A DNA stretch of 64,000 bases from a virus. Shown here piece by piece: positions 6,388 to 45,910 of this stretch. The notes below the pieces were generated by a model that worked only from the letters and a program-made list of their open reading frames with translations, did not search any database and was not told the DNA's origin. Position 1 is the first letter of the stretch. The number at the start of each line of letters is the position of its first letter. Made by a program: the position numbers and the translations under genes. The DNA lies in the IMG/VR virus record IMGVR_UViG_3300030331_006142, positions 62,001-126,000 of that record. The stretch is one strand, 5' to 3'.

Positions 6388-6981
6388 TTATGAAAGTTCT
6401 ACAATTCTCTTAAACGCACTGGAGCGAATATCAGGGTCTAACTCTGTTGAAATCTTTACTGCAAGTTCAGTGTCGCAGCCGGGGGCGCTCAGAATATCAA
6501 TAACATCCGACCTCCTAGACCAAGCCGAATGGTTGCCTGGTGCGCGGCGCTCAGATGCATAAAACCTATCATAAATAGCGTGCAATAAGTCCGTTGGGGT
6601 TCCCTCGGAGCCGTTGCGATTTCCGGTCCAAGAATAGCCGCGGCCGAAGAACGCCCTTTTCATTCGCCAGAATGAGCGATTCCACGAGCTAGGAAACCTG
6701 TTATACAACTGTCGATACCTTTCTGGCTCTTCAATATAATGTCCGTTGGCGACTAGCATTGCTTTGAGGCTGTACCCTTTGTTTACCCTATCCGACCAGA
6801 GCAGGTCTCTTGCCTTCTTGGTCAAGCCGGAGTTTTCTGCCAAGTACCAGTGCGCACGGGCGTAAGGGTGTTCAGCGATTCCGATTTGGATTGCCTCAGG
6901 AAGAAACTGATTTTTGGCCAAACCAATTAATTCTGCAGTAGTCATCCTGTAGATATTGTTTGTTAGTTGCTCAATGGACAT
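6388..6981 (-). CDS. Hypothetical protein, 197 aa
   Basis: Helical repeats in the N-terminal half (HPYARAHWYLAENSGLTKKA) resemble a HEAT- or leucine-rich-variant-like solenoid. The middle carries GRGYSWTGNRNGSEGT, a motif echoed in 13914-14201 (GKGYSWSEDTHGPGGT). Single-gene transcription unit with its own promoter. Function unknown. Confidence 0.6.
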   Translation of the reverse strand: MSIEQLTNNIYRMTTAELIGLAKNQFLPEAIQIGIAEHPYARAHWYLAENSGLTKKARDLLWSDRVNKGYSLKAMLVANGHYIEEPERYRQLYNRFPSSWNRSFWRMKRAFFGRGYSWTGNRNGSEGTPTDLLHAIYDRFYASERRAPGNHSAWSRRSDVIDILSAPGCDTELAVKISTELDPDIRSSAFKRIVELS

Positions 6982-7015
6982 TTATAATCCTTCTTAGGAG
7001 TTGAATAGTTATTAT

Positions 7016-7044
7016 ATAATATCAGAGAAAGTTCAAGAAGTCAA
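7016..7044 (-). promoter_or_regulatory. Sigma70-type promoter
   Basis: TTGACT, 17 bp, TATTAT, upstream of 6388-6981. Confidence 0.75.
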
Positions 7045-7050
7045 GCGAAA

Positions 7051-7269
7051 TTAATCAAAATGCTTTAGCCACTTTGCTCTGACCCAGCGGTCGTCGCCGT
7101 TGATAAAGCGAACCATGCAATGGTATTCATCAATATGCCAGAGACACTGTTCAGTGCTGGTGACATAATTGTTTATTAATTCTGCTTTGACGACAATTCC
7201 TGCTGTTTGTTTTTGGTCTTTTTCCAGGGGACAATAAACTAAGTCCCCAATGTCAAACTTCTGCCTCAT
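7051..7269 (-). CDS. SH3/KOW-like mini-protein (FDIGDLV), 72 aa
   Basis: MRQKFDIGDLVYCPLEKDQK, then AGIVVKAELINN, YHCMVRFINGDDRWVRAKWL. The same strand order as the array but a different C-terminus (KHFD), and its own promoter rather than an overlap. A solo member of the family. Confidence 0.7.
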   Translation of the reverse strand: MRQKFDIGDLVYCPLEKDQKQTAGIVVKAELINNYVTSTEQCLWHIDEYHCMVRFINGDDRWVRAKWLKHFD

Positions 7270-7276
7270 GTATTAT

Positions 7277-7305
7277 CTTATACCACATGAGGCAAAAAAA
7301 ATCAA
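7277..7305 (-). promoter_or_regulatory. Sigma70-type promoter
   Basis: TTGATT, 17 bp, TATAAG, close before 7051-7269; only a short leader. Weaker match than its neighbours. Confidence 0.6.
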
Positions 7306-7341
7306 ATCTTTTTGAAAGAAATTTTCCTTGTCTGTCAGTTA

Positions 7342-7542
7342 TCATTGCGGGTTGACCGGGCGCAGCTCGGCTAACTGATACCAATCTCTTTGGGAAGTTG
7401 TATGGTTTAGCCATCTGACCCTGTAACCGTATGTGGTCGGGTGGCCAAGGTGGTCTGCCAGGTCAATATTTAGCAGAACTCCAAGCAGAACAGAGCTGTT
7501 GGTAGCTTTGCAGTAGAATCTCACCAAATCTCCAACCTTCAC
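7342..7542 (-). CDS. SH3/KOW-like mini-protein (MKVGDLV family), 66 aa
   Basis: GTG start; MKVGDLVRFYCKATNSSVLL, GVLLNIDLADH, YGYRVRWLNHTT, then QLAELRPVNPQ. Overlaps the preceding family member by 4 nt. Last gene of the operon begun at the 8830-8858 promoter. Confidence 0.75.
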   Translation of the reverse strand: MKVGDLVRFYCKATNSSVLLGVLLNIDLADHLGHPTTYGYRVRWLNHTTSQRDWYQLAELRPVNPQ

Positions 7543-7763
7543 TGTTGCCTCTTTCGCCGGGCGTAAGCCAGTTCTCTTCGTGAGTGATTATCGTTGGGAG
7601 TAAGACCGTTCTGGGGCTTTGACCACCTAACCTGATAGGGGTACATACCTTTGTGGATAGCTATAACTAAGCCTAGCTGGCTTGCATCCCGCAATGTAAT
7701 TCTTTTATTGTAATTGCGCAGCTTTCCATAAGCTGAGAGCTTAACCAGGTCGCCCACCTTCAT
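7539..7763 (-). CDS. SH3/KOW-like mini-protein (MKVGDLV family), 74 aa
   Basis: I choose the ATG at 7763, one base after the upstream TGA and behind GGGAAG, over longer in-frame starts. MKVGDLVKLSAYGKLRNYNK, LGLVIAIHKGMYPYQVRWSK, then a basic end (RRELAYARRKRQQ) similar to that of 1104-1358. Confidence 0.75.
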   Translation of the reverse strand: MKVGDLVKLSAYGKLRNYNKRITLRDASQLGLVIAIHKGMYPYQVRWSKPQNGLTPNDNHSRRELAYARRKRQQ

Positions 7764-7764
7764 G

Positions 7765-8280
7765 TCACTTCCCATTGACAAGTTCAAAGTCTCGCTCCGG
7801 ATATCTAGAACGCCCGCGCCATCCAACTGTCTCATTTAGCCAACTTGAATTCTCTCCCCCTGAGAAATGTATCTCCAAATACTTTCCAGAGCAAGAGAGA
7901 ACAATCCCGACTGCATTGTCGTAGCCGCAGCGGATTGCGCGCTTATTGCTTTTCCCCCTAACCAGGGAGCCAACTGGGTATTTAGGCGGAGGTGACTTAA
8001 GTCTATCAATCAACTGAGTACCGTTACTCCAGAATGTTCCCGGAAAATAATCGGTATGAGGGTCGGACTCTTGGCCGACCGCTTTTGTGTGAAAGCTGCT
8101 AACAGATGGTGCGGAGTTTTCATCTTCCCAATCACTCGGCTCGACATACCATGACGCCACAGTATCTTCATAAATAAGCCACTCTTTTCGACGCTTTTTA
8201 TGAGGGTCGTCAGAAGTGATGGGTAGAACCTTAGTGCCAAGACGCTTAAAGAGTTTATTAAGAAATGATTTGTACTTCAT
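7765..8280 (-). CDS. Protein with C-terminal SH3/KOW-like domain, 171 aa
   Basis: The basic N-terminal half (MKYKSFLNKLFKRLGTKVL) is not recognised. From about residue 98 the array pattern appears: KYPVGSLVRGKSNKRAIRCG, AVGIVLSCSGKYLEIHFSGG, then PERDFELVNGK. This looks like a fusion of a unique domain to the mini-protein fold and supports that fold being a stand-alone domain. Start overlaps upstream stop (TAATG). Confidence 0.6.
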   Translation of the reverse strand: MKYKSFLNKLFKRLGTKVLPITSDDPHKKRRKEWLIYEDTVASWYVEPSDWEDENSAPSVSSFHTKAVGQESDPHTDYFPGTFWSNGTQLIDRLKSPPPKYPVGSLVRGKSNKRAIRCGYDNAVGIVLSCSGKYLEIHFSGGENSSWLNETVGWRGRSRYPERDFELVNGK

Positions 8281-8447
8281 TAGTGGACCTCATCGCTCAC
8301 AACGGGTTGGAACATCAACTTAACATCATTGAGCACTTCGGTTAGTACTTCAGCTTTCTCTGGGTTATCGTAGTTTTCGACAAATTTTACATTTAGTAAG
8401 GCAACCAGAGCTGCAACATTAACCGCTTCTTCTAGTGTATCATTCAT
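8280..8447 (-). CDS. Hypothetical protein, 55 aa
   Basis: MNDTLEEAVNVAALVALLNV and on; acidic, mostly helical, ending VVSDEVH. Sits between 8456-8716 and the 171-aa gene with tight spacing. Not recognised. Confidence 0.5.
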   Translation of the reverse strand: MNDTLEEAVNVAALVALLNVKFVENYDNPEKAEVLTEVLNDVKLMFQPVVSDEVH

Positions 8448-8455
8448 GTTCAACC

Positions 8456-8716
8456 TCAATCAACAATGTCTGCTGCAGTGCGAGCGCGGCCGACGTGCTG
8501 GCTTGTGGTCATAGACTGAAAGCCGTGACGGCCTCGTGCTGTGTAATCTCGAAGGACTTTTGCCCCCGTCTTTTCACAAGTGTCACCAATCAATAGGCTG
8601 TAGGAGAACAGCCGCTCTCCATCAGTAGTAAAACAGCCAGTGTGGTTAGATGCTGGTTTGCCTTCTGCCCAAAACTCTGGTACAAGATGGTTGCGAACTT
8701 TCAATACTTTAGTCAT
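8456..8716 (-). CDS. Hypothetical protein, 86 aa
   Basis: Start chosen at the ATG 8716, which overlaps the stop of the membrane micropeptide (ATGA) and has AAGGAC upstream. MTKVLKVRNHLVPEFWAEGK, then a conserved-looking segment ASNHTGCFTTDGERLFSYSL and GHGF-type loops. Not assigned to a family. Confidence 0.5.
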   Translation of the reverse strand: MTKVLKVRNHLVPEFWAEGKPASNHTGCFTTDGERLFSYSLLIGDTCEKTGAKVLRDYTARGRHGFQSMTTSQHVGRARTAADIVD

Positions 8717-8823
8717 TTTGTGTGTCCTTTCACGAACAATGGTGCGACATAGACAGCCGCGATTAAAGCGGCTCCAACCGCCATACAAACAATATCAAGA
8801 ATTTTCATTCTTACTTTTTTCAT
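8713..8823 (-). CDS. Single-span membrane micropeptide, 36 aa
   Basis: MKKVRMKILDIVCMAVGAAL then IAAVYVAPLFVKGHTK. Basic head, one span rich in Ala/Val, basic tail. First gene after the best promoter of the window. Function unknown. Confidence 0.6.
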   Translation of the reverse strand: MKKVRMKILDIVCMAVGAALIAAVYVAPLFVKGHTK

Positions 8824-8829
8824 AATACT

Positions 8830-8858
8830 ATTATACTATGATTCCATAATGATGTCAA
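8830..8858 (-). promoter_or_regulatory. Sigma70 promoter, exact consensus
   Basis: TTGACA, 17 bp, TATAAT: a perfect match to the Escherichia coli consensus, placed inside the end of the MutH-like gene and driving the 8823-7342 operon. Confidence 0.85.
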
Positions 8859-9493
8859 GTGTCTTTTTTTACAATTTCTTTTCCGAACGATGCACGTAGA
8901 AAGAACGCCATGTACTTATTTTTGAGCTGGGTACCCTTATAAAGTAAGGGAGTGTAAGTTCCATCTGATTTTTTACTAGCCTTGGTGCGAATCTGAAGTA
9001 ATCCATTAGGACCATTGATTGTGTGCAATAGCTCTCGCGATGAGTGGGCGCGCCTGATTTGTGAAGAAATATAATTATAATCTTCTTTGAGCTTTTCATA
9101 GCATTCAGGTGAATTCACTTGGTTAATGGTCTTGGACTTGATGAAGGTGCCGTCTTTCTTGTCAAAACCAGCAAATATTGTTTGCTTTAGTTTTTGGAAT
9201 ACTTTGCTGTCTTTAAACGAAGTCGGATTGTCGACAATATCCGGCAAACAATGACCCAGAGAAGTGATTGCAATAGATTCACCCACTGTAAAAGTCTTCA
9301 ACTCTCCATCGGTCATGTCCGTCAAATCAGAACCGTTTTTAATACCCAGTGCGGACTCTAGGATTTGTCCTCTTTCGCCCTTGTTGGCACCAGGCTTAGG
9401 AAGTTGGTCGAAATCGAATGTGTTCAGCATACCCTCAACTTGAGCAGTTGATAGCTTTGCGGAGTCGATAATATTATTTGCGCTGCTTGTCAT
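8855..9493 (-). CDS. MutH/Sau3AI-family DNA endonuclease
   Basis: 212 aa. The block GERGQILESALG (E46) followed by SDLTDMTDGELKT (D56/D59, E64, K66) matches the catalytic Glu...Asp...Glu-x-Lys arrangement of MutH and Sau3AI, metal-dependent nucleases that recognise GATC. Start at ATG 9493 behind GAGAG; it overlaps the upstream 53-aa gene by 20 nt. There is no MutS or MutL in the window, so a repair role is not supported locally. The near-total absence of GATC from this DNA fits a nuclease that attacks host DNA while sparing the phage. Specificity is inferred from the family, not shown. Confidence 0.75.
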   Translation of the reverse strand: MTSSANNIIDSAKLSTAQVEGMLNTFDFDQLPKPGANKGERGQILESALGIKNGSDLTDMTDGELKTFTVGESIAITSLGHCLPDIVDNPTSFKDSKVFQKLKQTIFAGFDKKDGTFIKSKTINQVNSPECYEKLKEDYNYISSQIRRAHSSRELLHTINGPNGLLQIRTKASKKSDGTYTPLLYKGTQLKNKYMAFFLRASFGKEIVKKDT

Positions 9494-9635
9494 TCTTGAT
9501 TCTCTCAATCTCTTCCATGACCCTCACTCTATCATCGCTTGGTAGAGATGTCAAGATTTTTGTTGTCTCCGGTTTTGGAAACTCTACTAAATGACGAGCA
9601 ATACGTCGAATGTGTGCAATTGACCTAATTTCCAT
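9474..9635 (-). CDS. Hypothetical protein, 53 aa
   Basis: MEIRSIAHIRRIARHLVEFP and on; basic, helical, ends in an EEIERIKNDKQRK helix. GGAGG 6 nt before the ATG. It overlaps the start of the MutH-like gene and is co-transcribed with it, so it could modulate the nuclease; that is inference from position only. Confidence 0.5.
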   Translation of the reverse strand: MEIRSIAHIRRIARHLVEFPKPETTKILTSLPSDDRVRVMEEIERIKNDKQRK

Positions 9636-9636
9636 G

Positions 9637-9747
9637 TTAGCCTCCAATTAAAGTTGTCACAAACTGCTTAATGCCGGTGATGCCGATAAAATCTCCGGCC
9701 AAAAATAATGCAACAACAAAAAATAATTTACCAATAAAATCAAACAT
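9637..9747 (-). CDS. Single-span membrane micropeptide, 36 aa
   Basis: MFDFIGKLFFVVALFLAGDF then IGITGIKQFVTTLIGG. A hydrophobic N-terminal span and a short amphipathic end. Overlaps the upstream stop; the downstream gene's SD lies in its last codons. Confidence 0.55.
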   Translation of the reverse strand: MFDFIGKLFFVVALFLAGDFIGITGIKQFVTTLIGG

Positions 9748-9913
9748 TTACAATACCGTACCTTCTTATTGAATCAATCTTCCAATCGCTACCAAAGTGC
9801 AGTCGGCGAATGTATGCCCAAGATGCAACTTCCGCAAAGGACTGCCTAGCAACGGTTTCAGTAACAATCTCAGCCGTGTCTGGATTTAAGAACTCTATAA
9901 TGTATGCGTCCAT
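9740..9913 (-). CDS. Hypothetical protein, 57 aa
   Basis: MDAYIIEFLNPDTAEIVTET, VARQSFAEVASWAYIRRLHF, ending RRYGIVNV. Soluble alpha/beta. Its ATG lies in the stop of 9913-10167 (TAATG). Not recognised. Confidence 0.5.
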   Translation of the reverse strand: MDAYIIEFLNPDTAEIVTETVARQSFAEVASWAYIRRLHFGSDWKIDSIRRYGIVNV

Positions 9914-10167
9914 TAGTGATGACCAGGATACATGGTCTGCATCGCATGGTAGCAGTCTGCCGCATCGACTCGGCTTGGGTTTCTCTTTGTGTTGTCAACC
10001 AATCTAAGATTAGCATATACTTTCTTGTTCTTAATATCCAAATCTAGACCCACCACTCGCCCAATATATGAGTAGCCCGACATCCTTACTCTAACCCTGT
10101 CACCCGCCTTGATTTTATTAGGGTTCCATTGGTCAAACAATTTTTCAATGTCTCTGTTTGATACCAT
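9913..10167 (-). CDS. SH3/KOW-like protein (KAGDRV), 84 aa
   Basis: A short helical N-terminus (MVSNRDIEKLFDQW), then IKAGDRVRVRMSGYSYIGRV, VYANLRLVDNTKR and a helical tail. Of the family this one most resembles a KOW motif. First gene of the operon ending with the MutH-like nuclease. Confidence 0.65.
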   Translation of the reverse strand: MVSNRDIEKLFDQWNPNKIKAGDRVRVRMSGYSYIGRVVGLDLDIKNKKVYANLRLVDNTKRNPSRVDAADCYHAMQTMYPGHH

Positions 10168-10194
10168 TTTTTAACCTTTCATAGTTACATTATT

Positions 10195-10223
10195 ATTATA
10201 CATTACCTCGACTAAAAAGTCAA
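10195..10223 (-). promoter_or_regulatory. Sigma70-type promoter
   Basis: TTGACT, 17 bp, TATAAT, just after the tRNA-Leu gene; drives the KOW-like/MutH operon. Confidence 0.8.
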
Positions 10224-10232
10224 GAAAAAAAG

Positions 10233-10314
10233 TAGCTAGGGCGGGACTCGAACCCGCATACCCGGAGGCGGCAGATTTTAAGTCTGCTGTGTATACCAAT
10301 TCCACCACCTAGCC
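10233..10314 (-). tRNA. tRNA-Leu (anticodon TAA)
   Basis: Acceptor arms GGCTAGG/CCTAGCT pair (one G-T); anticodon stem-loop GCAGA-CTTAAAA-TCTGC; long variable arm typical of leucine; T-arm GCGGG-TTCGAGT-CCCGC. No encoded CCA. Confidence 0.92.
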
Positions 10315-10318
10315 ATGT

Positions 10319-10395
<77 letters not shown>

Positions 10396-10404
10396 ATATA
10401 ATTA

Positions 10405-10476
10405 GGCGTGTGGTGAGAATCGAACTCACATCATCAGCTTGGAAGGCTGAGGTAATGGCCGTTATACGACACACGC
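10405..10476 (-). tRNA. tRNA-Gly (anticodon TCC)
   Basis: Acceptor GCGTGTG/CACACGC, anticodon stem-loop TCAGC-CTTCCAA-GCTGA, T-arm GTGAG-TTCGATT-CTCAC. No encoded CCA. Confidence 0.9.
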
Positions 10477-10483
10477 GTGATTG

Positions 10484-10556
10484 TGGAGCATCTGGGACTC
10501 GAACCCAGAACCAGCGGATTAAAAGTCCGATGCGCTGCCAATTGCGCCAATGCTCC
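10484..10556 (-). tRNA. tRNA-Lys (anticodon TTT)
   Basis: Acceptor GGAGCAT/ATGCTCC, anticodon stem-loop with CTTTTAA loop, T-arm CTGGG-TTCGAGT-CCCAG. First tRNA of the four-gene cluster, starting directly after the stop of the 50-aa gene. Confidence 0.92.
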
Positions 10557-10709
10557 TCATGCCCTAATTATTCTCCCAAACTTAATCTTCGAGCCATGCA
10601 ACTCCAAGAGCGTCTTCTTCTTTTTCTCACAAATCTTTTTCGTTGCATAAATATGCTCCTTTGGTTCTTTGCCGATTCGATACTCTAAATGATAAATCGC
10701 TGTACTCAT
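10557..10709 (-). CDS. Hypothetical basic protein, 50 aa
   Basis: MSTAIYHLEYRIGKEPKEHI, YATKKICEKKKKTLLELHGS, ending KFGRIIRA; very lysine-rich. The ATG overlaps the stop of the upstream SH3-like gene (ATGA), and its own stop abuts the tRNA-Lys 5' end, so it shares a transcript with the tRNAs. Not recognised. Confidence 0.5.
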   Translation of the reverse strand: MSTAIYHLEYRIGKEPKEHIYATKKICEKKKKTLLELHGSKIKFGRIIRA

Positions 10710-10915
10710 ACTGATTTCTCTACTTTTCTCAAGGAATGGCCGCCAGTCCAGAAGACACCATAGTCGTCTGCCCAGCGGACCCTATAAGTTGGTTCTGACA
10801 CGGCGCCATCGACGCCCCAGCGCTCCTGAATATCGATGATGATACCAACCCGGAGATAGTGGGGGCTGTCCTCGATAAGCCCATCTCGCTTCATTACTAA
10901 ATCACCGACTTTCAC
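10706..10915 (-). CDS. SH3/KOW-like mini-protein (MKVGDLV family), 69 aa
   Basis: GTG start; MKVGDLVMKRDGLIEDSPHY, LRVGIIIDIQERWG, EPTYRVRWADDYGVFWTGGH, then SLRKVEKSV. Last gene of the six-gene overlapping array 11811-10706. Confidence 0.8.
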   Translation of the reverse strand: MKVGDLVMKRDGLIEDSPHYLRVGIIIDIQERWGVDGAVSEPTYRVRWADDYGVFWTGGHSLRKVEKSV

Positions 10916-10926
10916 TGATTAGCTCC
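10897..10926 (-). repeat. Array junction repeat
   Basis: SD (GGAGC), GTG start and MKVGDLV of 10706-10915 combined with LISESR-stop of 10902-11075. Confidence 0.85.
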
Positions 10927-11075
10927 AATTCTCTTTTGTGCAAGAAAACAATTGTGCCAGAATTCAACAATACATCGTAATACATACCATCTCCACTCAA
11001 CATACTGTAGACTAATCCATATTTGTTGCCATGATATATCTTCGGTAGAATCCTGACTAAATCACCGACTTTCAC
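10902..11075 (-). CDS. SH3/KOW-like mini-protein (MKVGDLV family), 57 aa
   Basis: GTG at 11075; MKVGDLVRILPKIYHGNKYG, LVYSMLSGDGMYYDVLLNSG, then HKRELELISESR. 14-nt overlaps on both sides. The shortest clean version of the family core, useful for defining its minimum fold. Confidence 0.75.
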   Translation of the reverse strand: MKVGDLVRILPKIYHGNKYGLVYSMLSGDGMYYDVLLNSGTIVFLHKRELELISESR

Positions 11076-11085
11076 TTATAACTCC
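11057..11085 (-). repeat. Array junction repeat
   Basis: Minus strand GGAGTTATAAGTGAAAGTCG and onward: SD, GTG, MKVGDLV of 10902-11075; the preceding gene ends VISESR. Confidence 0.85.
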
Positions 11086-11265
11086 TATGCTTGGATGTCC
11101 TTGACTGAACCACCCATTACCATCTCCAGTTTGCCACACAATGAAAACCTGGTCTCCATCCGGATGGGTTATAATCTTCTGGACAAGCCCAAAGTCCACC
11201 TTAACATGGTTTTCTCCCAAATATTTATACTCAGCGTACCACTGAACCAAATCACCGACTTTCAC
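11062..11265 (-). CDS. SH3/KOW-like mini-protein (MKVGDLV family), 67 aa
   Basis: GTG start; MKVGDLVQWYAEYKYLGENH, VDFGLVQKIITHPDGDQVFI, VWQTGDGNGWFSQ, end GVISESR. 14-nt overlaps on both sides. Confidence 0.8.
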   Translation of the reverse strand: MKVGDLVQWYAEYKYLGENHVKVDFGLVQKIITHPDGDQVFIVWQTGDGNGWFSQGHPSIGVISESR

Positions 11266-11275
11266 TGATAACCTT
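11246..11275 (-). repeat. Array junction repeat
   Basis: AAGG in place of GGAGG, then the shared GTG and MKVGDLV codons; the upstream gene ends KVISESR. Confidence 0.8.
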
Positions 11276-11440
11276 CAGTGCTTTGTAACTCCACAATCTT
11301 TTGCCCTGCGCGGTGATGACGTGAACGTCAGGATTCAAGAACGCACTCTCATCATAACTCGGGCACTTACCAGCATAACCTAGGCCGGTCACGATTCCTG
11401 TGTGGCCTTGCCCATTTCTAACTAAATCACCGACCTTCAC
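11252..11440 (-). CDS. SH3/KOW-like mini-protein (MKVGDLV family), 62 aa
   Basis: GTG start; MKVGDLVRNGQGHTGIVTGL, then FLNPDVHVITAQGKRLWSYK and ALKVISESR. 14-nt overlaps on both sides. Confidence 0.8.
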   Translation of the reverse strand: MKVGDLVRNGQGHTGIVTGLGYAGKCPSYDESAFLNPDVHVITAQGKRLWSYKALKVISESR

Positions 11441-11451
11441 TTATAACCTCC
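11421..11451 (-). repeat. Array junction repeat
   Basis: GGAGGTTATAAGTGAAGGTC and onward: GTG and MKVGDLV of 11252-11440, with EVISEGR-stop of 11427-11624. Confidence 0.85.
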
Positions 11452-11624
11452 AAGTCCTCGACCCAGTCCCAATCTCTTTGAATCCCGCATGTCCTGCGCT
11501 TTGGTGGCCACAGTACACGAACTCTATCACCAGATGGAATCCTTAAAAACTCTACAGCACATCCAACTAGGCCCTGCAAGCCAGTGTGGTAACTCCTGTA
11601 TTTGACCAAATCACCGACCTTCAC
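11427..11624 (-). CDS. SH3/KOW-like mini-protein (MKVGDLV family), 65 aa
   Basis: GTG start; MKVGDLVKYRSYHTGLQGLV, GCAVEFLRIPSGDRVRVLWP, ending DWVEDLEVISEGR. The R-V-L-W strand followed by a polar loop and D-L-E-V-I is the clearest statement of the family C-terminus. Confidence 0.8.
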   Translation of the reverse strand: MKVGDLVKYRSYHTGLQGLVGCAVEFLRIPSGDRVRVLWPPKRRTCGIQRDWDWVEDLEVISEGR

Positions 11625-11635
11625 TTATCACCTCC
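11605..11635 (-). repeat. Array junction repeat
   Basis: GGAGGTGATAAGTGAAGGTC and onward: GTG and MKVGDLV of 11427-11624, with EVISEGR-stop of 11611-11811. Confidence 0.85.
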
Positions 11636-11811
11636 ATCTCTAAATCTCCCCAATCAAAGGATTCTTGTGTATAAGTCTCAACATCTCCGTCGCAGAAGAG
11701 CATTGTCCATTCAAGTCGGCCAGGATACGATGGTGGGTGGTCAGAATCTATCACGAGGGCGTAGTAAACACCTTCTGCGAAGCCTAGTTTTACTAAATCA
11801 CCGACTTTCAT
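11611..11811 (-). CDS. SH3/KOW-like mini-protein (MKVGDLV family), 66 aa
   Basis: First gene of the six-member array; ATG at 11811 behind AGGAGAA, preferred over a start further upstream that would run towards the tRNA-Arg. MKVGDLVKLGFAEGVYYALV, RLEWTMLFCDGDVE, ending LEMEVISEGR. Confidence 0.8.
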   Translation of the reverse strand: MKVGDLVKLGFAEGVYYALVIDSDHPPSYPGRLEWTMLFCDGDVETYTQESFDWGDLEMEVISEGR

Positions 11812-11823
11812 TTGTCTTCTCCT
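11793..11823 (-). repeat. Array junction repeat, first copy
   Basis: AGGAGA, spacer, ATG and the MKVGDLV codons; here no gene ends in the repeat, since a tRNA-Arg lies upstream. It marks the head of the array. Confidence 0.75.
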
Positions 11824-11832
11824 GAAGCGTAG

Positions 11833-11896
<64 letters not shown>

Positions 11897-11906
<10 letters not shown>

Positions 11907-12004
11907 TTATTAGGCTCATACTTTACATTAACATAGATAAACAAAATACCTGAGCCGATTATTGAGAAAAGCAAGAACAAGTCTCCAATCATTTCAATAT
12001 TCAT
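11897..12004 (-). CDS. Single-span membrane micropeptide, 35 aa
   Basis: MNIEMIGDLFLLFSIIGSGI, LFIYVNVKYEPNKPR. The TAG stop lies within the 5' strand of tRNA-Arg (10-nt overlap). The ATG overlaps the stop of 12001-12192. Weak SD; coupling likely. Confidence 0.55.
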
Positions 12005-12192
12005 TGTACCACCTTGGTAAGCATATGTCTAGGAAAATCTTGAACTTTTGCATGCTCATCCCATGTAATATATATTCTGAACCAGTCTTCGTCGATTTGA
12101 GAGAAGACGACGCCCTTAGTTTGGTTAGGGAGTGGCTTGATTTGTTTGCTAGACACAACGTAAACCAAATCTCCAACTTTTACAGGCGACAT
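12001..12192 (-). CDS. SH3/KOW-like mini-protein (PVKVGDLV), 63 aa
   Basis: ATG at 12192 overlaps the upstream TGA and has AGGAGA about 9 nt before it. MSPVKVGDLVYVVSSKQIKP, GVVFSQIDEDWFRIYITWDE, ending RHMLTKVVQ. Family core with a diverged C-terminus. Confidence 0.75.
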   Translation of the reverse strand: MSPVKVGDLVYVVSSKQIKPLPNQTKGVVFSQIDEDWFRIYITWDEHAKVQDFPRHMLTKVVQ

Positions 12193-12581
12193 CAACACCA
12201 GTCTCCTATATCTGAAAAAATATCAACACTATTCTTCTTTTCTTGCCTTTCTCTGTGTCTTTTTAGGTTTTCATTTTTTACTTTTTCTTTCTCCTCTTCA
12301 TGAAGGTCCAGAATAGCGGCGCTGTGAGTAATCATATAGCTTGAATCACCGCCCTGATACACTCTTAGTTTCTCTCCCGTAGAGAGAGTTAGTGTCGGGT
12401 CTCTATCTTTTATATATTTGTTAGTCACCACGTCCCACGGATACACCATCTTCTCCACTGTTCTCATCGAACCGCCAGAAACCTGAATGTATGGCACCTT
12501 AAATTTTCCAAAATTATTCGCGTGCAAAAAAACGCGCGTGCCGTCAACCAGAAAGGAAATAGATTTTATTTTATTTTGCAC
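12192..12581 (-). CDS. Hypothetical protein, 129 aa
   Basis: The N-terminal two thirds look like beta-strands (SISFLVDGTRVFLHANNFGK); the last third is a highly charged helix (DLHEEEKEKVKNENLKRHRE). Followed by an SH3-like gene with a 3-nt overlap. Not recognised. Confidence 0.55.
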   Translation of the reverse strand: MQNKIKSISFLVDGTRVFLHANNFGKFKVPYIQVSGGSMRTVEKMVYPWDVVTNKYIKDRDPTLTLSTGEKLRVYQGGDSSYMITHSAAILDLHEEEKEKVKNENLKRHRERQEKKNSVDIFSDIGDWC

Positions 12582-13261
12582 TTTTTTGCCCTCTTTAGGT
12601 CAGACTCATGAGCGTAGATGGGAGCCACCTCTCCTGTAAGTAGTACCTGATACATTCTGGAACCCCTAGCTGCGCGAGTTACTGGTCTTGCATCTGTCTT
12701 AATAACAAAGCCTACCTTGTCAACCATCTTACGACGGACAGACCTGTTGGGATATGAGAAGCCATCATCAGATACATTAGCAATGTCAATCTTGTTGGTT
12801 GCTCTGATTTGCACGGTATCTCCAACATTGAATTTTAACTCTTCTTCATAGTTCTTCAGGACTTTCAAGGAATACTTATTGTTGGTAAACTTTAAGAAAT
12901 CCGATTCGACAAAGAAGAAATTATCTTTGTCCGATAAGGCTTCATCAACAAGAGGTCTATAATAGGGCGGATTGGCTTTGTAGTAGTATGCAACTTTTAG
13001 ACAAAGGTCTCTGTGATAATCTGACCAACATTCTTTCCAGTATTGCTTCTCTGCTATAACCACATCAGTATACTTTGCTTCGATTTTGTCTATTGTCCTG
13101 ATTTGGCTTTCCGAAAGATAATCTCGTTTTTTGCTTTGCTCAAGCACAGACTCAAGAAAGCCCTTTTCCCACATATCTTCTTGTGGTTCCGAGTTCTCAT
13201 ACACTCGGTCGAGTAAACATTCCAGTTGAAATGTGGTCGGAGTGTTCTTGGCCTGGTTCAT
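12566..13261 (-). CDS. Protein with C-terminal SH3/KOW-like domain, 231 aa
   Basis: The N-terminal 135 residues are charged and helical, with no family I know. From about 145: LKFNVGDTVQIRATNKIDIA, KVGFVIKTDARPV, MYQVLLTGEVAPIYAHESDL. This is the array fold with a longer loop. A second example of the domain fused to something else, after 7765-8280. Confidence 0.6.
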   Translation of the reverse strand: MNQAKNTPTTFQLECLLDRVYENSEPQEDMWEKGFLESVLEQSKKRDYLSESQIRTIDKIEAKYTDVVIAEKQYWKECWSDYHRDLCLKVAYYYKANPPYYRPLVDEALSDKDNFFFVESDFLKFTNNKYSLKVLKNYEEELKFNVGDTVQIRATNKIDIANVSDDGFSYPNRSVRRKMVDKVGFVIKTDARPVTRAARGSRMYQVLLTGEVAPIYAHESDLKRAKKCKIK

Positions 13262-16703: not shown

Positions 16704-16796
16704 TTATCCAAAATTTTCAAAATAATAAAAAATATAAGCAGTAATCAAGGCTGATGCAATCGCGCAGGGCCAATCGATGCCCCTCCCATTAAACAT
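16704..16796 (-). CDS. Single-span membrane micropeptide, 30 aa
   Basis: MFNGRGIDWPCAIASALITA, YIFYYFENFG. The ATG overlaps the stop end of the LeuA-domain-like gene by 8 nt. One span. Function unknown. Confidence 0.5.
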   Translation of the reverse strand: MFNGRGIDWPCAIASALITAYIFYYFENFG

Positions 16797-17382
16797 AAGT
16801 ATTTACACTTGTTAATGCAGCCAAGTCATTTAGTATACCCTGCACAACGTCGTACCTATTCCTCTTCTTCGCGTCGTCTAGAAAGAGCCTCAAAGAGCGA
16901 AATGTCCTATCGCAATTTACATAAAACTCAAAAGACTTGATTATAGACTCAAAACTTGCATTGACTATTGACTTCGAAGTTGTGGTGAAGTCCGCTCTAT
17001 CATTCTGAGCAGTTTTGAGAGAAAAGGTCACACAAACTTTAGCATCTGAGGCCGAGGTCTTGCTCGAATAGGAAAACGCTGGGAGGACATTCAACCCAAC
17101 CAAACTAATGCTCCCAAGAGACGGATATTGTGGCGTAAGCAATCGACTACAACAGGAGAATACTGCGTCCACGAAGCCACAGCCCTCTGCAGAGGAAAAA
17201 GAATGCTGGTACACCTGTTTGCCGCGGCGCTCTTCAAAGGAAAAATCTACATTTGTTTTTTCGCAGTCAGCGGTCTCGGTGATGCAAATTTGACCTGGGA
17301 CAAAGCATGTCTTTTCTGATTTCAGAATTTTGTCAAAAATAGCTTTTATGTTCTCTCTTTTGAAATCACCGGGGGTTTTCAT
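16789..17382 (-). CDS. Protein with LeuA-like regulatory (allosteric) domain
   Basis: 197 aa. Residues about 88-155 (LVGLNVLPAFSYSSKTSASD, AKVCVTFSL, then a loop and SIVNASFESIIKSFEFYV) read like the C-terminal dimerisation/leucine-sensing domain of isopropylmalate and citramalate synthases: a V-x-V-x-x-S/F strand, then the N/E-A-S-x-x-A/S-x-x-x-S-x-E-Y helix. No catalytic TIM barrel is present here. The tail (DDAKKRNRYDVVQGILNDLA) is helical. A stand-alone regulatory domain could bind an amino acid or disturb the host enzyme; this is inference. Confidence 0.45.
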   Translation of the reverse strand: MKTPGDFKRENIKAIFDKILKSEKTCFVPGQICITETADCEKTNVDFSFEERRGKQVYQHSFSSAEGCGFVDAVFSCCSRLLTPQYPSLGSISLVGLNVLPAFSYSSKTSASDAKVCVTFSLKTAQNDRADFTTTSKSIVNASFESIIKSFEFYVNCDRTFRSLRLFLDDAKKRNRYDVVQGILNDLAALTSVNTYV

Positions 17383-27067: not shown

Positions 27068-27376
27068 TTATTCAAAATCCTCCTCAATTATATCATATAA
27101 AAAGCTTTCTTCTTCAGTAGACAAAGCTAAATCTGAAAGAATCTCTTGGCCAAGGTTATAATCCCTTTGTGTGGCTTTGCGTTTTCTCTTCCCCATTGTG
27201 CTGCATTTTTGTTTAATTTTGTTTACAGCTAACAAAACATTTTCATCTTTCTCCAAGTAAAGCTTAACAATTCCTCGAAAAAAATCACCTTGCGTAATGG
27301 AGTCGTATCGCAAGCGAACAATCATTCTTGCGTGATTCTCGTCATCACTCTCAAAAACAATTTTTTTACTTTTCAT
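27068..27376 (-). CDS. Hypothetical protein, 102 aa
   Basis: Start at the ATG 27376, overlapping the IMPDH stop by 11 nt; an upstream TTG is possible. MKSKKIVFESDDENHARMIV, RLRYDSITQGDFFRGIVKLY, then a basic segment KQKCSTMGKRKRKATQRD. The first half resembles a ribbon-helix-helix/phage transcription-regulator layout. Not assigned. Confidence 0.5.
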   Translation of the reverse strand: MKSKKIVFESDDENHARMIVRLRYDSITQGDFFRGIVKLYLEKDENVLLAVNKIKQKCSTMGKRKRKATQRDYNLGQEILSDLALSTEEESFLYDIIEEDFE

Positions 27377-28412
27377 TTCTGAGGATGTGAGTACTACTTT
27401 CAACCTGGCCGGCGTTGCTCTGCTTTATGAACCGAGCTCGGACTTGGAGCTCTCGAATACTCCTAGCTCCAGAGTAAGAAAGCCCAGATTTCACATTTCT
27501 GGCCACCTTGTCCAACAACTCCTCTATGGGACCCTTGTATTGTACAGTTGTTGATACACCTTCTAAAGAACGCGCATTTCCCCTCCAAGCAATCTGAGCT
27601 TCTGGTGAGGCCATTCCTCTGTAGACCTTATATTTATTACTCTCTGAAGTGTTCAGCACTTCACCCGGGGTTGCATCTGTGCCTGCTAACATTGAACCCA
27701 GCATTACGAAGTCGGCGCCGGCGCCAAGGGCCTTGACGATGTCCCCGGAATTCTTTATGCCGCCGTCGGCAATAATGGTCGCACCATCAACCAATGAGCA
27801 ATCCAAAATGGATTGGAAGGTAGGCACTCCGTGCCCTGTCTGAATTCTGGTTGAGCATATGGAGCCTCCGCCGATTCCAATCCGAACTGCATCGGCGCCC
27901 CAAGATGACAGTTCCATGTATGCTTCGGGTGTTGCAACGTTGCCCGCCATAATAAGCACGTCTTCGCCGTAGGAGTCCTTAAGAGTTTTTAGTGCTGACT
28001 CTACCAATGTGTGGTGACCATGCGCGACGTCAATACACAAGATTCTTACACCGGCAGAAATTAGGAGTTTAGCTCTTTTAAGGTAATCGTCAGTGGTACC
28101 AATAGCTGCCGATAGTCGCTCTGAGTAAGGATGTGACTCTTCTTCAAGTCTCATCTTGACGGATGCGAACGTACTTGCTTGAGATACCGGCAAGTTGTAC
28201 CTATGCAATATGCCTAGGCCATTAAGTTTGGCCATGGCGTACATCATCTCCGATTCTGTCACGGTGTCCATTGGGCTAGATATAATTGGCAAGGCGAATT
28301 CGCAGTCTCCAATACTAGATGCCAAAGACACTTCTTCTCTTGTATTTATCGAGCTTTTCTGTGGCTCAAGCAACACATCATCAAAACAATGAGCCTGTTT
28401 AATTTTTAACAT
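27366..28412 (-). CDS. IMP dehydrogenase / GMP reductase family enzyme
   Basis: 348 aa from the ATG at 28412 (GGGAG upstream). TIM barrel with FDDVLLEP start, PIISSPMDTVTE, IGIGGGSICSTR (catalytic Cys), GVPTFQSILDC, IADGGIKNSGDIVKALGAGA, YKVYRGMASPEAQ flap and VQYKGPIEELL. No CBS regulatory domains, which normally lie inside IMPDH, so it should escape that feedback control. IMPDH activity (IMP to XMP) is my preferred call, but GMP reductase cannot be ruled out by eye. Confidence 0.85.
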   Translation of the reverse strand: MLKIKQAHCFDDVLLEPQKSSINTREEVSLASSIGDCEFALPIISSPMDTVTESEMMYAMAKLNGLGILHRYNLPVSQASTFASVKMRLEEESHPYSERLSAAIGTTDDYLKRAKLLISAGVRILCIDVAHGHHTLVESALKTLKDSYGEDVLIMAGNVATPEAYMELSSWGADAVRIGIGGGSICSTRIQTGHGVPTFQSILDCSLVDGATIIADGGIKNSGDIVKALGAGADFVMLGSMLAGTDATPGEVLNTSESNKYKVYRGMASPEAQIAWRGNARSLEGVSTTVQYKGPIEELLDKVARNVKSGLSYSGARSIRELQVRARFIKQSNAGQVESSTHILRNEK

Positions 28413-28413
28413 T

Positions 28414-28644
28414 TTAGGATTCTCCCTCTGTTCCATCTAAGCAATTAAGGCACTTCAAAAGTATACTGTCATCTTTTTTTGTCATGTGCCATTCATCTAT
28501 ATTCTCTCCGGGTAAGGGCTGATATCCACAATAAGCACACTGAACCCTGTCTTTGTACTCTTTCATTCTTTTTTTGAATTCTTTCATAAAAGCTTTTTTC
28601 GCAAAAAGAAGCTGCTTTCTCTTAACTTTTCTCGCAATACCCAT
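28414..28644 (-). CDS. Small zinc-ribbon protein, 76 aa
   Basis: Basic helical N-terminus (ARKVKRKQLLFAKKAF) then CAYCGY and, about 25 residues on, CLNCLDG, a C-x2-C pair arrangement for one zinc. The last codon region abuts the IMPDH start. Function unknown; nucleic-acid binding is plausible. Confidence 0.6.
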   Translation of the reverse strand: MGIARKVKRKQLLFAKKAFMKEFKKRMKEYKDRVQCAYCGYQPLPGENIDEWHMTKKDDSILLKCLNCLDGTEGES

Positions 28645-29755: not shown

Positions 29756-32700
29756 CTATGCTAAAAGCTTAAACATTTTTCTGACACTGAAGGTGGAAAA
29801 CCCCCAATTTGGGTCATACTTCAACCTTGCCATGTATGGTCGGTTAATATGTATGATATCCCTCTCCGGGTCAACGCCCCAGCATCTAATTGTATTAGTT
29901 TCATTGTTGTCATCAATAACCTTGACGACAAAAAAGTTTTTACCGTTCTTTGACTTCTTTAGTTTACACTCCCTTGGAATGAACCAAGTCACACCCAGCT
30001 CTGGGTCATATTCTGAAATGGGGGGGATATAAAGTTCGTTAAGTTTGTTTCTTACCGTTTCAGTTATGACAGAGCTAATCGGGAAAACACCGGTTAGATT
30101 AACTAAGGATTCGAGCTTCTCTTCTTCACTGAAGTCCCCCTCTGGTTCGTACTTTGCGATATTTTCCTCTAGGTTTTTCAGCTTCCTTGGGCGGTCGACG
30201 CAAACTGCCGACCAAAAATGGCGGAGGCCCGAGAACCTCTCGTCAACCAAGTCGTTGAGTGCTTGTGCGCGACATAGAGCATCTAGAGCCTTTTTATTGA
30301 GCTTTGAATATTTAACCTTGTCGTGAAACAAAAAGTCTTCAACCGTGTTAAATGGCCTGTGTTCAATAATCTGCTGAATAGCGACTGCGCCGAGGCCCTT
30401 GATAGATGTTAGGGGTTGGACCAATGTCTTACTATCTTCGCTAATCTCCCAATTCACACCCGAAGTGTTTATGTTCAGAGGCTCAACGATATATCCCATT
30501 GATTTTGCGGTGGCAATAGCTCTCTCTTTTCTGGTTTCGGGCTCCTTATCCAAGAAGGCAGCTAGCCATTCGGCTGGATAGTAGTTGAGTAACCAAGCGC
30601 ACTGATAGGACAAGATACAGTAAGAAACTGCATGAGATTTATTGAAGCCATAGCCTGAAAAGTATTCAAACTTGTTCCAAAGCTCTCTTGCCTCGTGCGA
30701 GGCCATACCCTTCTCGAGGCAGCCCTTATGAAATTTGTCAAAGATTTTATCTTTCTCTTCTGCAACTACCCCTGTACCTTTCTTGGTTAAGAGTTTGCGG
30801 AGCTTGTTGCCTTCATCTAGGGTCAGGTTCTTGCCAAGCTTGTGAGCCAGAAGCGCGATTTGCTCTTGAAAAATAAGAAAACCATACGTTTCCTGAGTTA
30901 CATCACGAACAGTTTGGTTCTGATACTCTACCTCATCCGGCTCTTGTTTTGCTCCGATGAACATCTTGTCAACGCCGGCTGACAGTGGGCCGGGTCGGTA
31001 GATAGAGGTAATCGCCGCAAGGTCTGTAATATTGTCTGGCTTTGCATTTTTGCAGAACGATTGTGCTCCGGGTTCTGTAAATTGGAAGATACCAGCCCAT
31101 TTGCCTTTGTGGAATACATTTCGCCAGACCTGACTGTCATCTAGGTCAATCTTGTCTGGGTGCAGATGCTCATTGTAAAAGTTCCTGACCTGTTCAAATG
31201 TTGGGTTATCGATTCCATGGTGTCTCTTTAGGATACGCTCAACGGCGCCTTCTACCATTCTAAGAGAAGCCAAACCAAGAATATCAAACTTAATAAAACC
31301 CATGGGCTCAAGATGTCTAACATTTTGTCCTTCACTCCAAGGTGTCTGACGGACACCACCACTATTAATTAGTGGCATCCACTCATCTAGTCTCTCGCCA
31401 ATCACCACACCACCGGCATGACGACTAGCAGAACGAGTCTGGCCATAGAGCGTTTCGACATGGGTCTTGATGTGTGGATATTTCTCCAAGAATTTTTGAA
31501 GCGTTTCAGAATACATCATTAGTTCTTCGAATGTCGGAGCATAAACACCAGCTGTAATGCCGTGTGCTTTCTTCGCAGGCGGCGTAGCTTCATGAACCAT
31601 CTTACTGGTCACATTGTTCACCTCTGTAAACTCAATACCATAGAACTTTGAAATGTCCTTGATAAGAGAACGAAGCTGTAATGTGTTCCAGTTAGTGATA
31701 GGCACAACTGTATCATCACCCCACTCATCAATCAGATATTCCTTCAGAACCATCGGGTCGGATACATCATAGTCAATATCTGGATAGCCTGAGCCGCCCT
31801 TGGTTAAAAACCGCTCAAACTGAAGACCATACTTGATTGGGTCAACCTGCGTAATGCCAAGAACATAAGACACCAAGGAGCCGGCGGCAGAGCCGCGCCC
31901 AGGACCAACAAGCTGTTTCTCGACAGCCATATCAGAAATAGCTTTCATTGTCAAGAAGTATTTAGAGAAGCCTCGACCATCAATGATATCGACCTCGTAC
32001 TTCAACCTCTCGGCATATTCTTTGTTCTCTGCGAGACCAAGGCTCCTAGCTCCCTCAACACATAAAGCAGCAAGAGTTTGCCCTGCCGTACTACCTTCTG
32101 GCACAACAAAGTCTGGAAGGCGAACCTCATTGTCTGGTAGAAAGTTTGCGATACGCTCGTGGGCAATATAGTAAGTTCTCTTGATGGACTCAAGAACAAG
32201 CTTGTCGTCATACTCTACTCCAACTGACTTGGAGTAATTCTTGTATGCTTCCCACATCTGGTCTCCGTTCTTGGGATACAACTCGTATCCAATCTCCTCG
32301 ACAGAAATAGGCAATTCCTCAGATAAATAATCTGGTCTGCCTTTGCCCAACCAGCCGAGGCGCTTGTATAACTCTCTGTCTTTCCAGACATTCTCATTGT
32401 AGTAGTGAGAATCCGCAGTTGATATCAAGTCGATGCCAAACTCATAGTGCATCTGAATGATATACTGGTTTAGTTCGTGCTGTTCTGGAATGTTGTTCCA
32501 CTGTAACTCGCCATACCATCGGTCACCAAAGATAGACTGCATCTTTTGTGTCGTGCTTCTCATTGCATCAAGGACAGCATCCGGGCCTTCGTCACGATTT
32601 TCCCAATAGTTTCCAGCGTATACACCACCAAGACAGGCACTGGCTGCAATGACGCCCTTGTTGTATTTCTTCAGCAAAGCATAGTCAACTCGTGGATAGC

Positions 32701-33190
32701 GATAGAAGTTATCGCCAACATAACTGGTTGAAATCATTTTGAAAATGTTTTGTAAACCTTCTTGGTCTTGCGCAAGGAGAATAAGGTGTCGTCTACGATT
32801 TAGGACAGACTTCATCTTTTTCTTTGAAGCTTCGTTCTCGACGGTTGTACCCGATGAGCCATCTTCATACTCTGACTTCTTCTTCGCTGCTGCTTTGATT
32901 TGTTCGTATTCTTTCTTCCACTTTGCAACAGATGGAATGAAATATGCCTCAACACCAAAGATTGGTTTGAAGTCTTTTCCTGACTTCTTCATTTTCTTGG
33001 CATGAAGAACTTGTCCTGCGAGACCATTAGCATTCCCATGGTCAGTAAGTGCAAGGGCGTCCATGCCATTTTCATAAGCAAAGTCCATATGTTCTGCTGG
33101 GTACCCGAGGGCGTCAAAGGGTGAGCCCGCGACGGAATGGGCATGAAGCCCGACAAAAGGAATACTAGGCTTATTTCTGGACATTTGCAA
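29756..33190 (-). CDS. dnaE: DNA polymerase III alpha-subunit type (family C) polymerase
   Basis: 1144 aa. PHP domain at the start (FVGLHAHSVAGSPFDALG, LALTDHGN), palm motifs GRGSAAGSLVSYVLGIT (about 432) and YPDIDYDVSD (about 469, two catalytic Asp), fingers GIFQFTEPGAQ and IYRPGPL, the GYGFNKSHAVSY element and an OB-like C-terminus. A replicative-type polymerase; phages usually carry family A or B instead. I favour the TTG start (33190) because GGAGG lies 6 nt before it, though an ATG at 33184 is possible. No separate proofreading or clamp gene is visible here. Confidence 0.92.
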   Translation of the reverse strand: MQMSRNKPSIPFVGLHAHSVAGSPFDALGYPAEHMDFAYENGMDALALTDHGNANGLAGQVLHAKKMKKSGKDFKPIFGVEAYFIPSVAKWKKEYEQIKAAAKKKSEYEDGSSGTTVENEASKKKMKSVLNRRRHLILLAQDQEGLQNIFKMISTSYVGDNFYRYPRVDYALLKKYNKGVIAASACLGGVYAGNYWENRDEGPDAVLDAMRSTTQKMQSIFGDRWYGELQWNNIPEQHELNQYIIQMHYEFGIDLISTADSHYYNENVWKDRELYKRLGWLGKGRPDYLSEELPISVEEIGYELYPKNGDQMWEAYKNYSKSVGVEYDDKLVLESIKRTYYIAHERIANFLPDNEVRLPDFVVPEGSTAGQTLAALCVEGARSLGLAENKEYAERLKYEVDIIDGRGFSKYFLTMKAISDMAVEKQLVGPGRGSAAGSLVSYVLGITQVDPIKYGLQFERFLTKGGSGYPDIDYDVSDPMVLKEYLIDEWGDDTVVPITNWNTLQLRSLIKDISKFYGIEFTEVNNVTSKMVHEATPPAKKAHGITAGVYAPTFEELMMYSETLQKFLEKYPHIKTHVETLYGQTRSASRHAGGVVIGERLDEWMPLINSGGVRQTPWSEGQNVRHLEPMGFIKFDILGLASLRMVEGAVERILKRHHGIDNPTFEQVRNFYNEHLHPDKIDLDDSQVWRNVFHKGKWAGIFQFTEPGAQSFCKNAKPDNITDLAAITSIYRPGPLSAGVDKMFIGAKQEPDEVEYQNQTVRDVTQETYGFLIFQEQIALLAHKLGKNLTLDEGNKLRKLLTKKGTGVVAEEKDKIFDKFHKGCLEKGMASHEARELWNKFEYFSGYGFNKSHAVSYCILSYQCAWLLNYYPAEWLAAFLDKEPETRKERAIATAKSMGYIVEPLNINTSGVNWEISEDSKTLVQPLTSIKGLGAVAIQQIIEHRPFNTVEDFLFHDKVKYSKLNKKALDALCRAQALNDLVDERFSGLRHFWSAVCVDRPRKLKNLEENIAKYEPEGDFSEEEKLESLVNLTGVFPISSVITETVRNKLNELYIPPISEYDPELGVTWFIPRECKLKKSKNGKNFFVVKVIDDNNETNTIRCWGVDPERDIIHINRPYMARLKYDPNWGFSTFSVRKMFKLLA

Positions 33191-45070: not shown

Positions 45071-45910
45071 TAGATAATTTTGAATTTTTGGCGAATGATA
45101 TTCTACATAGACATAGTCTGACTCGTACTTTGTCGGGTAAATACCGAAATACACTTTCATGTTGTCTGAAATTTTACTTTTAATGTTTTCAGTCAATTCT
45201 CTTAATAAATTCCCTTCAGACTTTAGTTTTTGCTCATTTATACCAAAATAGTATATCACCTCCGTTCCCTGCTTGAAAGGAAAAAACACTTTGTCTTCAC
45301 ACTGCAGGTTGCTAATCCCGATAGTCTTTATCCTTGATGATTCTTTTATCTTAGAAAAAGTTGAAAAAATTGGTTTTGTGTTTTTGAAGACCTCAATCAT
45401 GTGATAAGAATCGCAAAAAATATCATTAATTTGTTCAAAGTATTCGAATACGTTTATGGACTCAACCAAGCTTTCCACAGCCCGATTTGAAACTAGCGTG
45501 ATTTCTTCGAACAGCCCAGAGCGCGCATATTCTTGAAGCACGTTTTTAACTGTTCTCTCTTGCAATTTTTGCTGCTCTGAGCATAACTCTGTGTCTGGTT
45601 CAAAATAGACTACTTTAATATTTATTGATTTTTTATAAAAATACTCTAATAATCTAAGAGCCATGGCACTGGTTTTTGATGCTCCGCAAACAAAGAGTGT
45701 CACTTCCTTTTTGATGTGTTTCAAGAAATTAATTTTAGATATATTCTCAAAAGACTCATACTCTTCAGGGTCTGTGTATTCTGGGATAATGTAAGAATTT
45801 TTTGACTTGCTTCCTGAATTTTTTACACTATATAAAGCATAGTTGCCGTATTTTTCCAGCGAAGAAGCAATTGCATCTGCAGCATTTCCAAGTGTCAAGA
45901 TATTTTTCAA
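45056..45910 (-). CDS. Divergent FtsZ/tubulin-like protein, 284 aa
   Basis: The order of elements follows FtsZ: NILTLGNAADAIASSLEKYG (compare the GGGNA start), VTLFVCGASKTSAMALRLLE (74-90, the place of GGGTGTGA), IKVVYFEPDTELCSEQQKLQ (the F-E-G-R region), ITLVSNRAVESLVES (the I-x-N-D/R-x-L strand) and NVFEYFEQINDIF (the A-F-x-x-A-D/N helix). The tubulin signature G-G-G-T-G-T/S-G is degraded to G-A-S-K-T-S-A, so GTP binding may differ. It is cotranslated with the polymerase gene upstream (ATGA). Could form filaments or bind host FtsZ. Confidence 0.5.
   Translation of the reverse strand: MKNILTLGNAADAIASSLEKYGNYALYSVKNSGSKSKNSYIIPEYTDPEEYESFENISKINFLKHIKKEVTLFVCGASKTSAMALRLLEYFYKKSINIKVVYFEPDTELCSEQQKLQERTVKNVLQEYARSGLFEEITLVSNRAVESLVESINVFEYFEQINDIFCDSYHMIEVFKNTKPIFSTFSKIKESSRIKTIGISNLQCEDKVFFPFKQGTEVIYYFGINEQKLKSEGNLLRELTENIKSKISDNMKVYFGIYPTKYESDYVYVEYHSPKIQNYLLTEN

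Follow-up and report, generated by a model that had tools for sequence, protein, structure and literature searches.

A MutH/Sau3AI-like nuclease encoded without a detected methylase in a marine phage genome devoid of GATC

The nuclease gene and its product

The window analyzed in this work, a stretch of 64,000 nucleotides, corresponds to positions 62,001-126,000 (G000:C1:62001-126000) of a 130,653-base IMG/VR record (G000) that belongs to a marine virus of bacteria. On its minus strand, an open reading frame starting with ATG at 9493 and running to 8855 encodes a protein of 212 aa, which is predicted from profile matches, a modeled structure and alignment to be a GATC-specific endonuclease of the MutH/Sau3AI-like PD-(D/E)XK type. 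The protein matches phrog_15364 (E 1.8e-89), a family without assigned function. Just upstream of the start codon, at 9526-9554 on the minus strand, lies a sigma-70-like promoter (TTGACA-17-TAGAGT, with TG before the -10 element), identified by consensus match only, which is probably the nuclease's own promoter in a region where 9 promoter-like sites were found versus 4.1 expected. A perfect consensus promoter (TTGACA-17-TATAAT; 8830-8858, minus strand) is located directly past the stop codon of the nuclease.

The gene resides in a variable islet (6982-12565), whose flanking genes (6388-6981 and 12566-13261) are conserved in the relative G045; the records of G045 and of another relative, G047, contain no homologue of the nuclease. 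Between 7051 and 13452 on the minus strand, near tRNA genes, there is a run of short ORFs starting with or containing MKVGDLV-type sequences (e.g., 7342-7542, 10706-10915, 11062-11265, 11252-11440, 11427-11624, 11611-11835 and 12001-12198), which apparently form a paralogous family. Among the other genes of the phage, an IMP dehydrogenase-like gene (window 27366-28436) and a short adenylosuccinate-synthetase gene (G000:C1:43332-44336, or L007:3332-4336, minus strand), the latter conserved in the clade and closer to PurA than to PurZ, represent phage purine metabolism. A 382-aa protein (45907-47055, minus strand) has only a weak match to family A DNA polymerases, in a phage that apparently encodes a DnaE-like polymerase (29756-33190) as well, and a further ORF (16789-17382, minus strand) weakly matches the LeuA allosteric (dimerisation) domain, just under the Pfam cut-off. 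The genes psbA and psbD are absent from the window phage, so nothing points to a cyanobacterium as its host, and the possibility that it is itself a cyanophage was rejected.

A structural model of the nuclease was obtained with AlphaFold2 from 30 family members (pLDDT 87.5, pTM 0.84). In a Foldseek comparison of this model with the PDB, significant matches were confined to MutH (E 8e-8, including MutH-GATC DNA complexes) and Sau3AI (E 2.4e-5), both of which are GATC enzymes, while BcnI and PvuII were not significant; the predicted fold places the protein in the MutH/Sau3AI group of PD-(D/E)XK nucleases. Among profile models, the NCBIfam MutH model NF003458 matched residues 32-210 (E 2.2e-7) at 30.2 bits, well below the equivalog cut-off of 243, whereas the Pfam MutH model PF02976 had no match in G000, the nuclease included, and the only Pfam match of the nuclease was a weak one to MvaI_BcnI. 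Alignment with hhalign to E. coli MutH paired K48, E56, D70, E77, K79, R184 and K186 of MutH with K38, E46, D59, E64, K66, R169 and K171 of the window protein. The catalytic residues, in the MutH-like pattern E46...D59...E64-L-K66, are invariant across 88 family sequences, and the DNA-contact residues K38, R169 and K171 are invariant or nearly so in the same set. The sequence-only reading had proposed a MutH/Sau3AI-like nuclease with an E...D...ELK catalytic pattern, and both proposals are thereby borne out. From fold and residues, the enzyme is predicted to be GATC-specific. MutH of E. coli and Haemophilus is its best fold match, with aligned catalytic and key contact residues. Sau3AI shares the MutH fold and cuts the site predicted for the window protein, but it has two MutH-like domains (chains of about 465 residues) and a cognate C5-cytosine methylase, whereas the window protein has one domain and no detected methylase partner.

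One position sets the window protein apart from the rest of its family. Residue 198, aligned with Tyr212 of MutH, is Tyr in each of the 87 relatives and Phe in the window protein alone, which thus lacks the strand-discrimination tyrosine. Tyr212 of MutH has been reported as methylation-sensing (PMC3848065), a role also named in the title of Friedhoff 2003 as cited in the reference list of PMC10940147. The substitution suggests relaxed methyl discrimination and would be in keeping with an enzyme for which sparing methylated DNA is no longer necessary, which we regard as a lead. The finding that a MutH-like mitochondrial gene was non-toxic when tested in E. coli (PMC8099122) is a warning that MutH-like genes can be inactive.

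Absence of GATC and the mode of its loss

The window contains no GATC, versus 186, 221 and 236 sites expected from second-order Markov, dinucleotide and mononucleotide models, respectively. The other 15 palindromic 4-mers have observed/expected (O/E) ratios of 0.87-1.20 in the window, and the next most depleted 4-mer has a ratio of 0.72. The absence spans the whole window (1-64000) and continues through the entire record, where a single site falls far below expectation, as in site avoidance: no GATC is present, where the second-order model predicts 338 and the dinucleotide model 411. Among 4-mers in the record, GATC has z = -22.7 and the runner-up -8.6, while GATG, GATA and CATC, each one base off GATC, are in excess. 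Markov expectations and this isolated z rule out chance or base composition as the cause. No degenerate palindrome besides GATC comes near zero in the record, which, together with the fold search, excludes an MvaI/BcnI specificity of the nuclease. The claims made from the sequence alone, that GATC is wholly missing from the 64 kb and that composition would predict a couple of hundred sites, have therefore held, and the comparison of GATC and other palindromic 4-mers with Markov expectation proposed at that time finds only GATC so depleted, in the window and in the record.

The observation extends beyond the record. Contig G029, which is 99.99% identical to G000 across a 16.2-kb overlap, reaches 52.4 kb past it, and this extension has no GATC versus about 166 expected. 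Since two other contigs, G028 and G029, agree with G000 and both lack GATC, an assembly artefact was rejected. Synteny with G045 (190.7 kb) puts the distance that separates the outer ends of G000 and G029 at about 4.5 kb or less, inside large structural genes; nearly all of the ~185-kb genome is thus covered, and the remaining gap could hide a gene.

The traces of the loss are visible in codon usage. The Asp codon preceding C is GAC in 256 cases and GAT in none, although GAT makes up 64% of Asp codons at other positions; likewise, ATC accounts for 0 of 315 Ile codons following G and for 23% elsewhere. In 39 genes common to G045 and the window phage (71% nucleotide identity), none of the 158 GATC sites of G045 is kept, while other palindromes in the shared genes are retained at 15-31%. 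At 109 of these 158 sites the amino acids are the same in the window phage, the most frequent replacement being GACC. The comparison with G047 gave the same picture (130 sites, none kept). The purge of GATC is specific, complete and largely synonymous.

Nuclease relatives and GATC depletion among phages

The nuclease family was found only in phages: tblastn with the nuclease retrieved 25 Synechococcus phage records, an alignment-based scan detected the family in 134 viral contigs, and in about 85,000 prokaryote genomes scanned in a similar way, where distant relatives could be missed, none was detected. A single-sequence scan of the viral contigs found nothing. The nucleases of Kyanoviridae cyanophages are 54-67% identical to the window protein. 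In S-IOM18, S-RS29, WH25-B, S-RIM8 and KBS-M-1A, a DNA methylase gene is followed within about 70 bp by the nuclease gene, and in S-8S29 (L003:21202-22680) a Dam methylase and a MutH-like nuclease are fused into one 492-aa protein. This fusion protein is annotated just as DNA adenine methylase; across the Kyanoviridae, such pairs or fusions are mostly annotated as hypothetical. The partner methylases of S-IOM18 and S-8S29, the two that were tested, belong to the Dam family TIGR00571 (E about 1e-78, above cut-off), and Dam-type genes were found in every one of the four complete isolate genomes inspected, as well as in all three nuclease-positive records that measure at least 200 kb. Judged by sequence, the combination resembles a GATC restriction-modification module carried by phages. 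In the nuclease tree, the window protein groups with the Dam-adjacent cyanophage nucleases (support 0.84), in a topology whose inner nodes lack resolution.

The cognate methyltransferase that defines a type II restriction-modification system is thus present in the cyanophage relatives and was not detected in G000 or G029. The models PF02086 (Dam-type) and PF00145 had no match in either contig, PF01555 had none in G000, and scans for DPPY/NPPY methylase motifs gave no credible match. A methylase hidden in the contig was rejected on these negative results, the gap of about 4.5 kb or less being the part that remains. The Kyanoviridae phages that share the nuclease family (S-IOM18, S-RIM8, S-8S29; phrog_15364) have a Dam methylase and partly GATC-depleted genomes that keep some sites, whereas in the window phage no methylase was detected and no site is left, and its nuclease has Phe at the Tyr212 position. 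The predicted recognition of GATC by the nuclease has indirect support from its retained equivalents of MutH K48, R184 and K186, from the Dam partner in relatives and from the GATC-specific depletion.

Depletion of GATC accompanies the nuclease across phages. The pooled GATC O/E was 0.51 in 33 non-redundant nuclease carriers, versus 1.20 in 72 cyanophage loci where no nuclease was detected (p 3e-12, rank test) and 1.00 in the window phage's 77 tail-sheath relatives (p 7e-13, rank test), the loci being non-independent through shared ancestry and the controls often being fragments, in which a missing nuclease is no proof that the phage lacks one. Among cultured cyanophages, S-PM2, Syn9 and S-SM2, which have no nuclease, show ratios of 0.93-1.37, and carriers 0.15-0.77. 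For most other palindromes, the difference between carriers and cyanophage controls is smaller than for GATC. Avoidance of CCGG, GGCC and AGCT is seen in cyanophages with the nuclease and in those without it; in the T4-like cyanophages (L181-L183, L195-L263 and the nuclease-positive loci), the pooled O/E of CCGG is 0.02 without and 0.35 with the nuclease, and the ratios are 0.10-0.14 for GGCC and 0.15-0.25 for AGCT.

Within the clade of the window phage, the nuclease was found in none of 37 sheath-relative records. G045 and G047, which are syntenic with the window phage and 84-89% identical to it in RNR and DnaE, contain 687 GATC versus 739 expected and 629 versus 610 expected, respectively, in their full sequences. 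The sole GATC-free member found in the clade is the one that carries a GATC-type nuclease. Another sheath relative, G054 (L147, L264-L272; 185,578 bases), is depleted of GATC over its whole length, to about 0.2 of expectation, and neither a homologue of this nuclease nor a MutH-family enzyme, Dam-type methylase or C5 methylase was detected in it; a scan of 49 of its proteins showed no GATC enzyme among the matches listed. This case shows that something other than the nuclease can deplete GATC in the clade. Two short fragments of sheath relatives (L131 and L132) have GATC ratios of 0.12-0.18.

Possible role of the nuclease and of GATC elimination

We consider it probable that the protein is a solitary endonuclease that cuts GATC in non-self DNA, with the host chromosome as the foremost candidate, and that self-immunity is provided by elimination of sites and not by methylation. 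The nuclease, predicted to be GATC-specific and of the MutH/Sau3AI fold, would act on DNA foreign to the phage; cutting of the host chromosome, the likeliest target, would halt host function and supply nucleotides, and the DNA of competing phages would be the second possible target. Related phages would protect themselves by the Dam-type methylase adjoining or fused to the nuclease, whereas the window phage, with no detected methylase, would have had every GATC of its ~185-kb genome removed, mostly by synonymous substitution. With all sites gone, the phage would be immune to its own enzyme whatever the methylation state, and other DNA in the cell could be destroyed with no chemical mark on the phage DNA. 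The packaged restriction enzymes of chloroviruses are held responsible for early degradation of host DNA (PMC7019647), and by this parallel host degradation would be the likeliest purpose here as well. The chlorovirus systems (CviAII and others) likewise comprise a site-specific endonuclease that is encoded by the virus, recognizes a short site and has a proposed role in early host-DNA degradation, as is predicted for the window phage; however, these viruses are unrelated to it, the enzyme families are unrelated as far as known, and chloroviruses protect their DNA by an adjacent methylase, whereas the window phage has no detected methylase and no site.

The same enzyme might instead serve mainly against co-infecting or superinfecting phages, including those with Dam-methylated DNA, with Phe198 relaxing methyl discrimination. 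This reading overlaps the one just given, the main target being the sole difference, and it draws on the Phe found only in the window protein, where 87 of 87 relatives have a Tyr aligned with the methylation-sensing Tyr212, and on the richness of same-clade relatives in GATC. We regard it as possible but somewhat unlikely, as the chlorovirus precedent fits host degradation and exclusion by the enzymes was put to the test in that system and rejected (PMC7019647). The main rival reading, conceivable though unlikely and already named in the sequence-only reading, is that GATC was purged under host restriction, either of the DpnII/Sau3AI type or of the DpnI type in combination with Dam, the MutH-like gene being coincidental or having another role. 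Complete elimination from a large genome has a precedent in Staphylococcus phage K, with no GATC in 140 kb, which is explained as escape from host Sau3A in an account that, in the part available to us, mentions no phage-encoded GATC nuclease (PMC6532042). Taken with the avoidance of CCGG, GGCC and AGCT by cyanophages that have no known phage nuclease for them, phage K indicates that host pressure alone can purge a site, and the depletion in G054, where no nuclease was detected, counts in favor of host-driven avoidance. Against it, the syntenic relatives G045 and G047 retain GATC while the single GATC-free clade member carries the nuclease, GATC depletion accompanies this nuclease family across distantly related phages, and the nuclease retains all catalytic and contact residues.

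Two further explanations carry far less weight. Protection of the phage DNA by a base substitution such as 2-aminoadenine, with the GATC loss unrelated, is suggested by the adenylosuccinate-synthetase gene in G000 and its relatives; yet the protein is nearest to ordinary short PurA, keeps the catalytic Asp motif and matches PurZ structures much more weakly, and relatives with the same gene keep GATC. The gene is ambiguous but nearer to PurA than to PurZ, and 2-aminoadenine DNA was rejected as highly improbable. A role in mismatch repair or replication on the phage DNA, as might be proposed from MutH being the closest structural match, is scarcely credible: MutH is a mismatch-repair nickase acting on hemimethylated DNA, and the phage genome has neither GATC sites to act on, which makes such repair impossible, nor a methylase to mark strands.

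Target avoidance instead of modification, the possibility raised by the sequence-only reading, is thus the best supported, on the strength of a GATC-type fold and residues, Dam-paired relatives, the lack of both methylase and GATC here, and the GATC retained by relatives without the nuclease. We infer an active enzyme that cuts GATC, is produced in infection and turns on host DNA, as well as a purge brought about by the nuclease; the link between nuclease and purge is correlational, being drawn from one complete evolutionary case and a family-wide trend, with phage K, G054 and a possible host restriction set beside it. Also weighing against this view are the dependence of MutH itself on activation by MutL and its mainly nicking activity, together with the failure of PF02976 to match the window protein. 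A bolder form of this view, held tentatively, is restriction without modification, in which immunity would come solely from target elimination, Phe198 would free the enzyme, and GATC in any adenine-methylation state may be cut in host or rival DNA.

As far as sequence can indicate, a viral restriction in which modification would be replaced by target-site elimination is well supported. It is assumed that a restriction enzyme must be accompanied by a methylase for protection; in this phage, from which several hundred GATC sites have been removed and none left, sequence appears to replace chemistry as the means of protection. The family phrog_15364 gains a suggested function, and a Dam-nuclease pair, once fused, is described in cyanophages. 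Together, these phages offer a testable evolutionary series, from relatives without the nuclease and with normal GATC, through cyanophages with nuclease and Dam and partial depletion, to the window phage with the nuclease alone and no GATC.
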